DNA of 51,077 nucleotides, taken from Armatimonadota bacterium (GTDB lineage: Bacteria; Bacteroidota; Ignavibacteria; OLB7). This document shows, one piece after another, positions 442 through 7,357 of the stretch (its first letter is position 1; each line of letters opens with the position of its first letter). The stretch spans positions 1-51,077 of the forward strand of contig JADZEY010000024.1 of the NCBI GenBank assembly GCA_020850315.1, given 5' to 3'. The notes under the pieces were generated by a model, which had not been told where the DNA came from, searched no databases, and saw only the letters and a program-made list of their open reading frames with translations. The translations under genes were made by a program, and so were the position numbers.

Positions 442-1824
442 TTAGAATGGTTGTTCCCCTTTTGCTGGCAAGTACTTGGGCGCGTCATCGCGAACGATAT
501 GATTGCAGAACATGGATTGGGCCTTTACGAAGGTGGCGGGGAATCCCCCTGTGGGGCCGTTCCGCTGCTTGGCTACAATCACCTCGGCCAACCCTTCGGT
601 CGGATAAGCCTTCCCGTTGATTTCGGCGGTGAGTATCTCGTAGTACTCGGGGCGGTACACCAAGATTACGTCATCGGCATCCTGTTCTTGGCTGCCGCTG
701 TCCCGAAGGTCTTGCAGAAGTGGGCGTTTGTCGTGGCGGGTGTTCCGGCTCAACTGACAGAGTGCCACCACGGGGATGTCCAGCTCCTTCGCCAAGCCCT
801 TCAGCCCGCTGGTGATAGCTCCAATAGCAAGGTCATGCCGCTCGGCTTTGGGGAGCTGCATCAACCCGATGTAGTCAATCATCAACACGTCCAGACCCTT
901 CCGCCGCTTCATGGAGCGGGCTTGGGCGCGAACCTCCATTAGCGATAGCCGTGGCCGGTCATCAATCGTTAGCGGCCATTCATCCCCAATCCGTTGGAGC
1001 TCCCGATCAACGGATTCCTTCTCCGATGGTGATACCGCACCGCTCGACAACCGTTGCAGGTCAATGCCAGTGTGAATCGAAGCAAGCCGCAGCAAAACTT
1101 CGCGGGCAGGCATTTCCAGAGAGATGAATATCCCCCGCTTCCCCAATCGAAGGGCGTGGTACAGCATCGAGATGGCAAACGATGTCTTCCCCATGCTTGT
1201 AGCCCCGCCGATGATGATAAGCCGGCTGCGCTGTAACCCGCCGGTCATCCGGTCCAGTGTGTGCAATCCGGTGGGAAGCCCTGTCGTGACGGTTTGGCCA
1301 TCCCCGCGCTGGTACGCTTCAAACCGCTGCTGTACGAATCCAGCCACTTCCGCCACCTGATCCTTCAATCCAGAACTCCCCTTCTGCATCATGGTGGAAA
1401 ACAGTTTTTGAAGCTCTTCATCGGCTGCGGCGATTTCGTCAAAGCCACTGGCCGAATCCTTCCCGCATCGCGCAATGATGCCTTCCGCGTAGTTGCGCAA
1501 TTCCCGCTTGGCTGTCCGCTCTTGCAGGATCATGGCTTGATCTTGCACCTGGTCGGTGGTGAAGTCGAACAGCAGCGCGCTCATGTACGTCTCCCCGATC
1601 TCGTTCAGGGTCCCGTTGCGGCGGCATTGGTCGCGTGTCGCGTCCCAATTCGGGAGCTTCCCCGTCTGAGCCACATCAAGGATCGCTTGATGAATCATCC
1701 GGTGCTTCGTGTTCACGAAATACTCCGTACTGGGTAGCATCTCAACCAAATTCCAGCACTCCTTTGTGCCCCTCAAAATGGCCATCAGCACATTGCGTTC
1801 CGTGCTGGTATAGAAATCCATCAT
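442..1824 (-). CDS. DnaB-type replicative DNA helicase of the integrated element
   Basis: About 460 residues, the normal length for DnaB. It has an N-terminal helical domain (residues 1-110), a linker, and a RecA-like motor domain. Walker A is GATSMGKT (about 207-214) and Walker B is LDVLMIDYI (about 311-319). A later conserved stretch, LRDSGSQEQDADDVILVYR, is typical of DnaB. DnaB is a hexameric ATP-driven helicase that unwinds DNA at the fork. I take the ATG at 1824 because it overlaps the stop of the upstream initiator gene as ATGA, which implies translational coupling; an upstream in-frame ATG at 1860 is less likely. Pairing with a winged-helix initiator matches phage replication modules in which the initiator loads its own helicase. 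Confidence 0.93.
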   Translation of the reverse strand: MMDFYTSTERNVLMAILRGTKECWNLVEMLPSTEYFVNTKHRMIHQAILDVAQTGKLPNWDATRDQCRRNGTLNEIGETYMSALLFDFTTDQVQDQAMILQERTAKRELRNYAEGIIARCGKDSASGFDEIAAADEELQKLFSTMMQKGSSGLKDQVAEVAGFVQQRFEAYQRGDGQTVTTGLPTGLHTLDRMTGGLQRSRLIIIGGATSMGKTSFAISMLYHALRLGKRGIFISLEMPAREVLLRLASIHTGIDLQRLSSGAVSPSEKESVDRELQRIGDEWPLTIDDRPRLSLMEVRAQARSMKRRKGLDVLMIDYIGLMQLPKAERHDLAIGAITSGLKGLAKELDIPVVALCQLSRNTRHDKRPLLQDLRDSGSQEQDADDVILVYRPEYYEILTAEINGKAYPTEGLAEVIVAKQRNGPTGGFPATFVKAQSMFCNHIVRDDAPKYLPAKGEQPF

Positions 1825-2876
1825 GCTGTAACCTCTGCCGGTTTGTACAAAATTTTCCATCCGTCTGGTGCTGGTCGCGGCGATGGATGCCGGTATCGGA
1901 TTCCACCCGACGTTTCCCAGTGCTCCAGTTTCCGCTCAATCTGCTGGTCAGCATCTTTCATCTGCGACACCCGCTTGCTGTCGAAAAACTCGGCCCCAAG
2001 CTCCATCGGGCGGGGCAGGTTGCGCTGCATCCGAATCTTCGCCCCCTTCGTCACCCAAGCGCGCCAATCCCGCCGCTGATCCCACCCCTGCCCCACCAAT
2101 GCCTCAAAAGCCTTGATTGCCATCTGGGGGTCAAGCCCCGCGACTGCGGCGTATGCCATAATGTCGTCGGTCGTTGGCGTTGGGATCAGAGGGGCAGATA
2201 CATCCGCCGAAATCCCTATCCCTGTTTCTTCCACAACACCAACAACATCACCCATCGCCGCTGTTGTTGGTGTTGTTAGTTGGTATTGTTGATTGGTATT
2301 GTTCCTTGTACCCTTCTCGTTTTTGAGAACACCCGTTCTCATTTTTGATAAGGGGGTGTTATCATTTTTGAGAACACCCGTTCTCATTTTTGATAAGGGG
2401 GTGTTATCATTTTTGAGAAGGGTGGCATCCGGTTCTTCCTCCAATTCATCCCCACGCTCAACCTCGATTTCCTCCAACTTCTTCTCTTTTTCGTCTGCCA
2501 AAATGTCCGACTGTTGATCGTGGATGGTGTACACCGTCCCCTTCCCTGCGGTCAAATTTCGGGTGATAATCCCAGCGGCTTCCAGTTCCGCCAACTGTCG
2601 GCTGATACTTGCTTTGGATAGTCCGAGGGCTTCGGCAAGGGTTTGGCGACTGGGGAAGCATTGCCCCGATTTGTCGGCAAAGAGCTTCAGGACCACATAC
2701 AAGGATTTGGCATGGACCGATACCGCAGGGTTCAGCATGACAGTGCTTGGGATGAATGCGTGCCGCCGATTCAACATTGAGTTGGTATTGGAAAAGGGGT
2801 TGGGAAAGGAAGGGATCGCCCGGATGGAGCCGAATGCCGTGGCTTGCTCCCCAGCAACCACGTTGGGAAACTCCAC
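1821..2876 (-). CDS. Winged-helix replication initiator (phage O/RepA-like)
   Basis: About 351 residues from a GTG at 2876; ATG starts at 2777 (residue 34) or residue 47 are plausible alternatives. Residues about 47-110 form a winged HTH of the kind in phage replication proteins: VSVHAKSLYVVLKLFAD, then CFPSRQTLAEALGLSKASISRQ and ELEAAGIIT. A charged Glu-rich linker follows, then two exact copies of a 15-residue repeat (LKNDNTPLSKMRTGV). A C-terminal domain contains AFEALVGQGWDQRRDWRAWV, like the helicase-loading end of DnaD/O-type proteins. The repeated codons coincide with a palindromic iteron array, so the gene probably contains the element's own origin. It overlaps the helicase start by ATGA. 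Origin binding and helicase loading are inferred. Confidence 0.82.
   Translation of the reverse strand: MEFPNVVAGEQATAFGSIRAIPSFPNPFSNTNSMLNRRHAFIPSTVMLNPAVSVHAKSLYVVLKLFADKSGQCFPSRQTLAEALGLSKASISRQLAELEAAGIITRNLTAGKGTVYTIHDQQSDILADEKEKKLEEIEVERGDELEEEPDATLLKNDNTPLSKMRTGVLKNDNTPLSKMRTGVLKNEKGTRNNTNQQYQLTTPTTAAMGDVVGVVEETGIGISADVSAPLIPTPTTDDIMAYAAVAGLDPQMAIKAFEALVGQGWDQRRDWRAWVTKGAKIRMQRNLPRPMELGAEFFDSKRVSQMKDADQQIERKLEHWETSGGIRYRHPSPRPAPDGWKILYKPAEVTA
2233..2276. repeat. 15-bp perfect inverted repeat beside the iteron array
   Basis: The arms 2233-2247 (acaacaccaacaaca) and 2262-2276 are perfect reverse complements around a 14-nt loop. It lies inside the initiator gene, about 35 bp from the iteron array. 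It may be part of the origin structure or an mRNA hairpin; both readings are inference. Confidence 0.7.
2311..2424. other. Candidate replication origin: symmetric palindromic iteron array
   Basis: Two exact 45-bp tandem units (2320-2364 and 2365-2409) plus a partial third. Each unit has two palindromes: GAGAACACCCGTTCTC (2325-2340, 2370-2385) and TGATAAGGGGGTGTTATCA (2346-2364, 2391-2409). The second matches the reverse complement of the first at most positions, so they read as one iteron in alternating orientation. Centres are about 22.5 bp apart, close to two helical turns. Each is preceded by a TTTTT tract. Half-sites flank both ends (CCCTTCTC at 2311-2318; GAGAAGGG at about 2414-2421). 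An origin inside an initiator gene is known from lambda O; function here is inferred. Confidence 0.65.
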
Positions 2877-4172: not shown

Positions 4173-4192
4173 TTATGTCAAGGAAATTTGTC

Positions 4193-4711
4193 ATGTGGGC
4201 TAAAAATAGTTTTTCTGTTCATTGGGATGTGAGTTGCGGCGAACGTCTTCGATGCTGGATTACAAAAAAATTTGGCAGTTATGGTGAGGCAGCAGCTGGA
4301 ATTGGCGTGACGGCAAGCAACCTATCCAAGTACATGGGGGCCAAAAAGGAACCCAGCGTAGAGGTTCTGCTGCGGTTCCAGCGGGAAGGTCTGTCGTTGG
4401 ATTGGGTGACAACGGGGCGGGGGCCAATGGAACTCCCAAATGAATCGAACCAAGTCCTGCTGCTTATGGATGGCCGTGTGATGCTGCTTGAAGAAGCGGT
4501 TGATCTGTTGCGCGCCGATCTAAGCACACGCCCCCAATACCTTGCCCCGTCACCCCCCACCAACCCGTTGCCAACCGAGAAGGGCGAATCCGTTGGGTAC
4601 ATTGGCAACCTTGACGGGGTGTTGGACTACTTAGCACGAACCACAAAAGAAGGAAGCAATCAGGAAGAGGAAGGTGAACGGAAGCGCGACGGGGATTCTG
4701 TATTGCTGTAG
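4193..4711 (+). CDS. CI-type XRE repressor, DNA-binding half only
   Basis: About 172 residues from the ATG at 4193, which has an AAGGA Shine-Dalgarno site 8 bases upstream; the ATG at 4175 lies almost in the operator. Residues about 14-80 (CGERLRCWITKKFGSYGEAAAGIGVTASNLSKYMGAKKEPSV, then FQREGLSLDWVTTGRGPM) match the XRE/CI-repressor HTH, including the family-typical Leu-x-Trp-x-x-x-Gly-x-Gly-Pro ending. The C-terminal half is a hydrophilic tail with no S24 peptidase fold. That domain is supplied by the next gene on the same strand, 47 bp downstream. It probably maintains lysogeny by binding the nearby palindrome. Confidence 0.8.
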   Translation: MWAKNSFSVHWDVSCGERLRCWITKKFGSYGEAAAGIGVTASNLSKYMGAKKEPSVEVLLRFQREGLSLDWVTTGRGPMELPNESNQVLLLMDGRVMLLEEAVDLLRADLSTRPQYLAPSPPTNPLPTEKGESVGYIGNLDGVLDYLARTTKEGSNQEEEGERKRDGDSVLL

Positions 4712-4758
4712 CACCACATACCACAAACCGCCCTCCCCAAGGGCAAGGAAGACAACGC

Positions 4759-5289
4759 ATGAGGAAACCACAATCGGTCACGGTTGAACCACTACCACAC
4801 TCCATTCTCGACATCCCCGTTATGGGTTCCGTCCCTTGTGGCCCCAGCACATTCGGCTACCCCCAGTGCGGTGGGGTTCAGTTGCAGAAAGCCCTGGGCA
4901 AGGGGACTATCTCAGGGTTTACCGTCACTGGCGGGTCTATGTCGGATGCCGGTATCACCCCCCGTGACATTCTGATTTGCCACCATGACCTTGCGCCCCA
5001 GATTGGGAGCGTGGTGGTGGTTCGCTCCGAGTACAATGAGTACATGTGTAAGCGGTGGAACGGCAAACGGCTTCAAGGCGAATCCGGCGGCGGCATTCAA
5101 GGCATCACTTCAGATTGCGATTGGAGTTTCGTTGGGCGGGTCGAACACGTCGTTAAGGGAATGCTTGATGTGGATCAAGATGCCAAGCGGTTACGCAGGG
5201 CCGAGGAAAGAGCGGTCGAGTTGGAGAACTTGGCGAGATGCCAATCGGCGGAGATTGCAGAGCTTCGGATATTGTTGGCGGAGAAATAG
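4759..5289 (+). CDS. Stand-alone UmuD/LexA-type S24 autopeptidase
   Basis: 176 residues. It resembles UmuD along its length: a Cys-Gly cleavage site (GSVPCGPSTFG, Cys27-Gly28), the nucleophile serine in VTGGSMSDAGITPRDILI (Ser60), the general-base lysine in YMCKRW (Lys98), and the family-typical end FVGRVEHVVKGM. A coiled-coil-like tail follows (RRAEERAVELENLARC). S24 proteins cleave themselves when stimulated by RecA filaments. No HTH and no UmuC polymerase gene is present, and the neighbour upstream is an HTH protein lacking this domain. I infer a two-protein repressor whose damage-sensing half is separate. AAGGAAG precedes the ATG. Confidence 0.83.
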   Translation: MRKPQSVTVEPLPHSILDIPVMGSVPCGPSTFGYPQCGGVQLQKALGKGTISGFTVTGGSMSDAGITPRDILICHHDLAPQIGSVVVVRSEYNEYMCKRWNGKRLQGESGGGIQGITSDCDWSFVGRVEHVVKGMLDVDQDAKRLRRAEERAVELENLARCQSAEIAELRILLAEK

Positions 5290-5933: not shown

Positions 5934-7145
5934 ATGGCAAAGATAGCACCACCCGCCGCACCACCGCAAGCCCCTTTCAAGATTCGGAACCCCGAAGGAA
6001 TTGGAGTGCTGTATGTTCGCCAATACACAGGGCGTGCTTGGCTTGTTACCCATGTGGGGAACCGCCGCCACCAAGCCACTGGCATCCCGTGGCCGGATGA
6101 TGATGGCACCAAGCGCAACCGATTGGGTATAACGCAACGCCAACAAGTAGCGGTAACCCGTGGGTTGGCGATACTACAACAGCGTGTGTTGGAGTATCGC
6201 CACCCTGAGCTCCGGCAAGAACCGACTGAAGCACCCACACGGCTGATGCTATCCGCAGCCATCGAGGAGTTTAACCAAGCCAAAGGCGTACATAGCAAAT
6301 CAAAAGCGATCCAAAGCCGCTACCGGAACGCAGTGGAACATCTGCTGATTGGCAGCAAGGGCGACTTAGTATTGGAGTCCACAACCCTGCGCAAGCGAAT
6401 CATCACCTTGAAGGAAGAAGCAGAAGCGAAGGTGAACATCAACTATTTGAAGAAACTCATGTACAAGGTGCGTGAGATGTGCGAGTATTGGGAACAGTGC
6501 GGGTACGTTGAACGGAACCCGATCAACGCAATCGGGATACCGAATCAGGTGCATGAAGATGATGTTCAACCGATGGAGCAAGAAACGTTCCGGCGGATCG
6601 TTGAACTGGCAACGCGGCAACACCACCACACCTTTGTGGAGTACCTAATGTTGATGCTTGGCATGGGGCTACGCGCTTCGGAAGCCGTTGGCCTTACCTG
6701 GGATGACTGGAACGGACAGACTCTGAGGGTGCATGGGAAGCGTGTGCGGGGCAATCGCACCGGCGTTCGATTCTATGCCGTGTTTGACACACATGGCCGG
6801 GCCACCACTCCGGGGTTGCCAGGAACCTTGTGGCCACTGGAAGAGACGCTGGATAGGATTCGGCAGCGAACTGGCGGGAAGGGGAAGTTTTTCCCAGAAA
6901 AGACAATCGCAAACTACCAGCGGATGCTACTCCAGCTACGCGAAGAGTTGGATCTTCCGCCACACAATACGCTTCGCAGCTTGCGGTCTGGCGCGGTGCT
7001 GATTATGAGGGACGTGTACAAATGGGGGGTCGAGTTCCGCTGCCTTCAGCTTGGCCACAGCGTCGCGGTGCATATTCGGCACTATGAGAAGCGGCGAAGG
7101 AGGTCAGAAGAATCCGCCGAAGCCGCTGTTACCTACCATATTTGA
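5934..7145 (+). CDS. int: Tyrosine-recombinase integrase
   Basis: 403 residues. An arm-binding N-terminal region (about 1-100) is followed by a SAM-like core-binding domain (about 105-205) and a catalytic domain (about 215-395). Catalytic signatures are Arg247 in MGLRASEAVGLTWDD, His344 and Arg348 in HNTLRSLRSG, His375 in LGHS and the nucleophile Tyr384 in IRHYEKR; Lys269 may be the beta-hairpin lysine. It catalyses site-specific integration and excision. The gene points at the 3' end of tRNA-Lys 140 bp downstream, the classic layout for an element that integrates into a tRNA gene. The ATG at 5934 follows AAGG with short spacing. Confidence 0.95.
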   Translation: MAKIAPPAAPPQAPFKIRNPEGIGVLYVRQYTGRAWLVTHVGNRRHQATGIPWPDDDGTKRNRLGITQRQQVAVTRGLAILQQRVLEYRHPELRQEPTEAPTRLMLSAAIEEFNQAKGVHSKSKAIQSRYRNAVEHLLIGSKGDLVLESTTLRKRIITLKEEAEAKVNINYLKKLMYKVREMCEYWEQCGYVERNPINAIGIPNQVHEDDVQPMEQETFRRIVELATRQHHHTFVEYLMLMLGMGLRASEAVGLTWDDWNGQTLRVHGKRVRGNRTGVRFYAVFDTHGRATTPGLPGTLWPLEETLDRIRQRTGGKGKFFPEKTIANYQRMLLQLREELDLPPHNTLRSLRSGAVLIMRDVYKWGVEFRCLQLGHSVAVHIRHYEKRRRRSEESAEAAVTYHI

Positions 7146-7282: not shown

Positions 7283-7284
7283 TG

Positions 7285-7357
7285 TGATTCCGTTGGGACT
7301 CGAACCCAAGACCCTCTGATTAAAAGTCAGATGCTCTACCAGCTGAGCTACGGAATC
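7285..7357 (-). tRNA. tRNA-Lys(UUU)
   Basis: 73 nt on the minus strand with a complete cloverleaf: acceptor stem GATTCCG/CGGAATC, D-arm AGCTCAGCTGGTAGAGC, anticodon arm CTGACTTTTAATCAG with anticodon TTT, and T-arm GGGTTCGAGTCCC. The discriminator base is A and CCA is not encoded. The 3' end faces the integrase, so this gene is the inferred attachment site of the element to its left. Confidence 0.97.

Follow-up and report, generated by a model that had tools for sequence, protein, structure and literature searches.

A probable lambda-like replication origin nested in the HTH_36 initiator gene of a prophage-like element next to tRNA-Lys

The element and its replication genes

The window, the whole stretch of 51,077 nucleotides that was analysed, opens with a group of phage-type genes:

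442..1860, minus strand: DnaB-type replicative helicase (DnaB_C, 3e-74; phrog_19, 6.9e-89)
1821..2876, minus strand: replication initiator gene, 351 aa from GTG 2876
2520..2757, minus strand: predicted winged-helix DNA-binding domain of the initiator, residues 40-119 (pLDDT ~91-98 over most of it)
4175..5289, plus strand: a repressor-like HTH protein and an S24 peptidase-like protein, read in the opposite direction to the replication genes
5934..7145, plus strand: tyrosine integrase of the element (phrog_1, 1.1e-17; Pfam PF00589 below cut-off)
7284..7357, minus strand: tRNA-Lys(TTT), immediately adjacent to the integrase gene, with the 3' end towards the element

The repressor/S24 pair, the integrase and the tRNA-Lys to the right show this region to be an end of a phage-like element that has integrated. 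Because base 1 is the end of the contig, only part of the element is present, and its other end lies off this contig. From its position the tRNA-Lys(TTT) gene is the probable attachment and integration site. A 15-bp match on contig C73 was considered as the second attachment site and rejected as a chance match, the start of that contig being chromosomal. The dxs gene adjoining the element is closest to Ignavibacteria (62%). The helicase gene is the next gene downstream of the initiator and overlaps the initiator stop; a separate helicase loader was not found in the part of the element present on the contig.

Translation of the initiator likelier starts at the ATG at codon 34 (~2777) than at GTG 2876, to judge from relatives and from residues 1-37, which are predicted with pLDDT <50. 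The protein matches Pfam HTH_36 (PF13730, E 3.3e-13) and the replication initiation families PHROG 270, 428, 678 and 345, with matches that reach residues 185-199 and span the repeat described below (2.4e-15 for phrog_270). Two of these profiles, phrog_678 and phrog_345, match lambda O as well, a remote link, and neither Phage_rep_O (PF04492, up to E 0.1) nor a RepA_N Pfam domain was matched in the initiator. With this domain, these profile matches and a replication gene adjacent, the protein belongs with the HTH_36 phage initiators (PHROG 270/428); the profile matches and the neighbouring DnaB-type helicase bear out the original prediction of a replication initiator gene.

The structure model, built on an alignment of 15 rows with the phage-collection sequences left out, has a mean pLDDT of 59. 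It predicts a winged helix composed of helix, helix, recognition helix and beta wing, a disordered linker (residues 150-232) that covers all array-encoded residues, and a helical C-terminal part of low confidence. A PDB search with the model returned chiefly generic winged-helix proteins and a weak fold similarity to the Rep-DNA/initiator structures 4pt7 and 5kbj.

An array of inverted repeats inside the initiator gene

Within the gene (1821-2876, minus strand) lie four exact palindromes with arms of 6-7 nt, spanning 2324-2409:

2324-2341: palindrome TGAGAACACCCGTTCTCA, centre 2332.5
2346-2364: palindrome TGATAAGGGGGTGTTATCA, centre 2355
2369-2386: palindrome, centre 2377.5
2391-2409: palindrome, centre 2400

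Their centres are 22.5 bp apart, TTTTT tracts lie in between and half-sites at both ends of the array, all as originally described. A 45-bp unit is present twice with 96% identity; being 15 codons long, it encodes twice, as also described, a 15-residue protein repeat, LKNDNTPLSKMRTGV. When codons were exchanged among the synonymous positions of the gene, keeping protein and codon usage, four inverted repeats in the array region arose in 0 of 2,000 shuffles (mean 0.27, maximum 3), indicating a constraint on the DNA and not on the peptide repeat alone. The array is the sole 100-bp stretch of the window with four such inverted repeats, and as a single strand it folds with -25.3 kcal/mol, versus -8.3 kcal/mol for dinucleotide shuffles (z -8.1).

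How are the ten half-sites of the array to be paired? Joined across the GC-rich spacers they yield the four palindromes and two orphan half-sites. Joined across the A-tracts they yield five full sites of the form TTmTCAAAAAyGAkAA, spaced 22, 23, 22 and 23 bp, each an inverted repeat with one mismatch between its halves in four of the five:

2404..2419, minus strand: iteron 1, TTCTCAAAAATGATAA (coding strand)
2381..2396, minus strand: iteron 2, TTATCAAAAATGAGAA (coding strand)
2359..2374, minus strand: iteron 3, TTCTCAAAAATGATAA (coding strand)
2336..2351, minus strand: iteron 4, TTATCAAAAATGAGAA (coding strand)
2314..2329, minus strand: iteron 5, TTCTCAAAAACGAGAA (coding strand)

The original prediction took the GC-centred palindromes to be the protein-binding units, alternating in orientation and constituting a new origin type. 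Their exactness, set against the single mismatch in most A-centred sites, speaks for this, but two half-sites are then orphaned, and relatives with the same half-site, GTTATC, keep the halves 6 bp apart across the A-tract in 29 of 31 sites, with an outer spacer of anything between 2 and 11 bp. Lambda iterons, too, are centred on an A-tract (PMC6022878), as are those of the Phage_rep_O initiators in two viral contigs. The single variant base in each half-site, A or C, reads C/A, A/C, C/A, A/C and C/C across the five sites, and its matching over the GC spacers needs nothing beyond one chance arrangement followed by the 45-bp duplication. Comparison with relatives favours pairing across the A-tracts, which leaves no half-sites at the ends and reduces the alternating orientation to one variant base per half-site. 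A new origin type built from GC-centred units is very unlikely, and the array reads instead as five ordinary lambda-like sites. A plasmid iteron origin of monomer-bound direct repeats was also set aside, as each site is an inverted repeat.

The flanks of the array

Two features follow the array on its 3' side:

2264..2311, minus strand: candidate unwinding element, directly 3' of the array, its role proposed from lambda
2233..2276, no strand: perfect 15-nt inverted repeat with a 14-nt loop, just past the A-rich stretch, where the run of A and C stops

The candidate unwinding element, with 26 A, 14 C, 3 G and 5 T on the coding strand, has 35% GC versus 54% for the gene; its best start ranks ~41 of 7,100 positions, which places it among the weaker duplexes of the phage-like element. 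The score of the inverted repeat was also reached by at least 1 of 150 synonymous shuffles. The matching place in lambda is occupied by a 28-nt inverted repeat, but a hairpin after the A-rich stretch was discarded as a general feature, since an inverted-repeat score >=9 was found in 8 of 59 such stretches versus 2 of 59 control stretches.

Comparison with known origins

Lambda and SPP1 are established cases of a phage origin lying within the initiator gene (PMC5043065, PMC6316719). In lambda each iteron is a hyphenated inverted repeat whose halves are linked by adenines and to which two O proteins bind, and an AT-rich region adjoins the iterons; O dimers bend the iterons and, on supercoiled DNA, open the 40 bp of A+T-rich sequence next to them (PMC5043065, PMC6022878, PMC7466680). 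The annotated lambda iterons, ATCCCTCAAAACGAGGGA and variants, have the form half-site, A-tract, half-site and are spaced 20, 24 and 23 bp inside gene O. The present locus shares this anatomy: the repeats lie in the initiator coding sequence, 3' of the DNA-binding domain, they are hyphenated inverted repeats within the 16-19 bp of a lambda-type origin with a central A-tract, their spacing of about two helical turns falls within ~20-24 bp, and an A+T-rich region follows on the 3' side with an inverted repeat beyond. It differs from lambda in that the initiator is an HTH_36 protein lacking a Pfam Phage_rep_O match, in having five sites rather than four, in its half-site (TTmTC instead of TCCCTC) and in its neighbour, which is a DnaB helicase and not the loader P. 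The original prediction had likewise drawn on gene O, and this part stands, whereas its setting apart of the array as an unfamiliar kind does not.

Of the same domain and profile family is orf7 of Lactobacillus phage LJ (phrog_270), an HTH_36 initiator that also has a DnaB-type helicase gene next to it and in-gene A-tract repeats ~23 bp apart followed by an NNTN-type A-rich stretch; its half-sites are different and protein identity is ~21%. In SPP1 oriL (gene 38) repeats and an AT-rich unwinding element lie within the initiator gene and the phage encodes a DnaB-type helicase, but the repeats are described as direct, a separate loader gp39 exists and there is a second origin, oriR. The RepA_N initiator of pSK41 binds, with a winged helix, boxes mid-way in its own gene that contain A+T-rich tracts, and the array-encoded part is a dispensable linker; the HTH_36 hybrid pPR9 carries pfam13730 with its own origin region. 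These are plasmids, however, the C-terminal domain of the pSK41 protein contacts DnaG, and a RepA_N Pfam match is absent here.

How common is the layout?

In-gene phage origins are also stated in replication-module reviews and for lactococcal phages. Counting a tandem DNA repeat score >=14 as an array, 68 of 75 O-like initiator open reading frames in viral contigs carry an in-gene tandem DNA repeat, versus 6 of 163 other open reading frames of the same contigs. The arrays lie at a median position of 0.49 of the gene, with most spacings at 18-24 bp or roughly double. A pattern search led to two viral contigs that have GTTATCAAAAATGATAAC or GTTGTCAAAAACGACAAC mid-gene in Phage_rep_O initiators, and the half-site of GTTATCAAAAATGATAAC is identical to that of the present array. 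Repeats occur at the corresponding place in the HTH_36 phage initiators of LJ, Kovu, JGon-2020a, AR1074-1 and ANDSL2_ph1, in two of which (LJ and ANDSL2_ph1) a DnaB-type helicase also adjoins in the same gene order, and several initiators from class-mates of the host bacterium carry arrays there as well. The expectation that relatives would show such arrays is thereby borne out for those with a phage replication module; the letters of the iterons vary widely between them and the layout is constant. As the in-gene layout is so common, the locus is a clear new example and not a new kind of origin.

The exact array is absent from 293 relatives, and no close homologue of the initiator was found in viral contigs or GTDB genomes with the peptide patterns used; six divergent initiators, once aligned, varied too much to serve in scanning contigs. 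In the host genus, the other genome (L045) has mid-gene 11-bp repeats GTTTGGAACAC with a 22-bp period and a primase-like gene next to the open reading frame, which is a candidate for another in-gene origin. At a further locus (L137) the array is followed by tandem copies of ACAAAAGACACTATT, words that also occur in the AT-rich region of lambda.

Homologues that keep the helicase module and lack an array would have spoken against the original prediction. The array-less HTH homologues looked at (L047, L050, L051, L052, L067) adjoin two RNase-H-like genes, judged by eye to be of RuvC type, and no helicase, and are thus not that case. A chromosomal HTH_36-like protein lacking an array beside two RNase-H-like genes recurs in several members of the class; the arrangement has the look of a conserved unit, and the protein is perhaps a domesticated initiator.

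An origin, an operator or a peptide linker?

Given sites conserved at the level of DNA and not of coding, arranged in this layout, with a helicase gene as neighbour and relatives laid out alike, we take the array to be, with a probability of about 0.88, the lambda-like replication origin of a prophage or prophage-like element integrated at tRNA-Lys, lying within that element's own initiator gene. Operators, too, can be palindromic arrays, and initiators are often autoregulated, so that the array could instead be an autoregulatory operator, or else an element for incompatibility. It lies mid-gene and not at a promoter, however, it has the A-rich stretch beside it and the helicase gene downstream, and the precedents of lambda, SPP1 and pSK41 are origins (PMC5043065, PMC6316719, PMC5703833), making the operator reading very unlikely. 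Least probable of all is that the DNA repeats only because it encodes a repeated peptide linker, and has no role as DNA: although the repeat is 15 codons long and encodes a predicted disordered linker, the palindromes do not survive synonymous shuffling, the layout is held among relatives whose iteron letters differ widely, and the two iterons of each 45-bp unit lie in different reading frames, so that what recurs at 22-23 bp is DNA and not peptide.

If the array is the origin, the five A-tract-centred sites are probably bound by the initiator, with the N-terminal winged helix binding each as a dimer. The spacing of 22/23 bp would place the bound sites on one face of the DNA. The bound and bent array could then destabilise and open the neighbouring A-rich stretch 2264-2311, and the helical C-terminal part of the initiator may recruit the DnaB-type helicase that the phage itself encodes in the next gene.

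Winged helix and iterons change together in LJ-type phages

The LJ-type Lactobacillus phages (L071-L116) form a natural series of specificity swaps. In this family seven recognition-helix types pair with seven iteron types at 43 loci with zero exceptions. Comparison between types gives 65% identity for the winged helix and 96% for the C-terminus, the latter value being no different within types, and the A-rich stretch GATAATAATACAAGTATTAATAAAAAC is nearly constant. A winged helix this variable combined with a C-terminus this constant suggests that winged helix and array were exchanged as one unit, although the two are adjacent, so that part of the association may be linkage. A comparable replacement is known from plasmids: in pPR9 about 500 bp of the pSK41 rep, comprising the N-terminal domain and the origin, are replaced by a pfam13730 version related to phage replication proteins, and the pPR9 rep region replicates autonomously and is compatible with pSK41 (PMC5703833). 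Whether winged helix and iterons constitute a swappable cassette across many phages, in which the recognition helix predicts the half-site and a swap keeps the unwinding element and the C-terminus, we regard as an even bet; the proposal rests on the seven helix and seven iteron types of the Lactobacillus set, to which the present gene would add one.

Implications

The present instance is new, and so is the comparison, which shows how widespread the layout is and how site and reader change in step. A probable phage origin can be placed to the base in a little-studied Ignavibacteria-like group. The comparison shows the lambda-style in-gene origin to be the rule among O-like phage initiators and reaches the HTH_36 initiators too, with a common grammar of half-site, A-tract and half-site at a spacing of ~22 bp in which the letters change freely. 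The co-switching of winged helix and iterons offers ready data from which to derive a DNA-recognition code and to locate the origins of unknown phages from their sequence alone.
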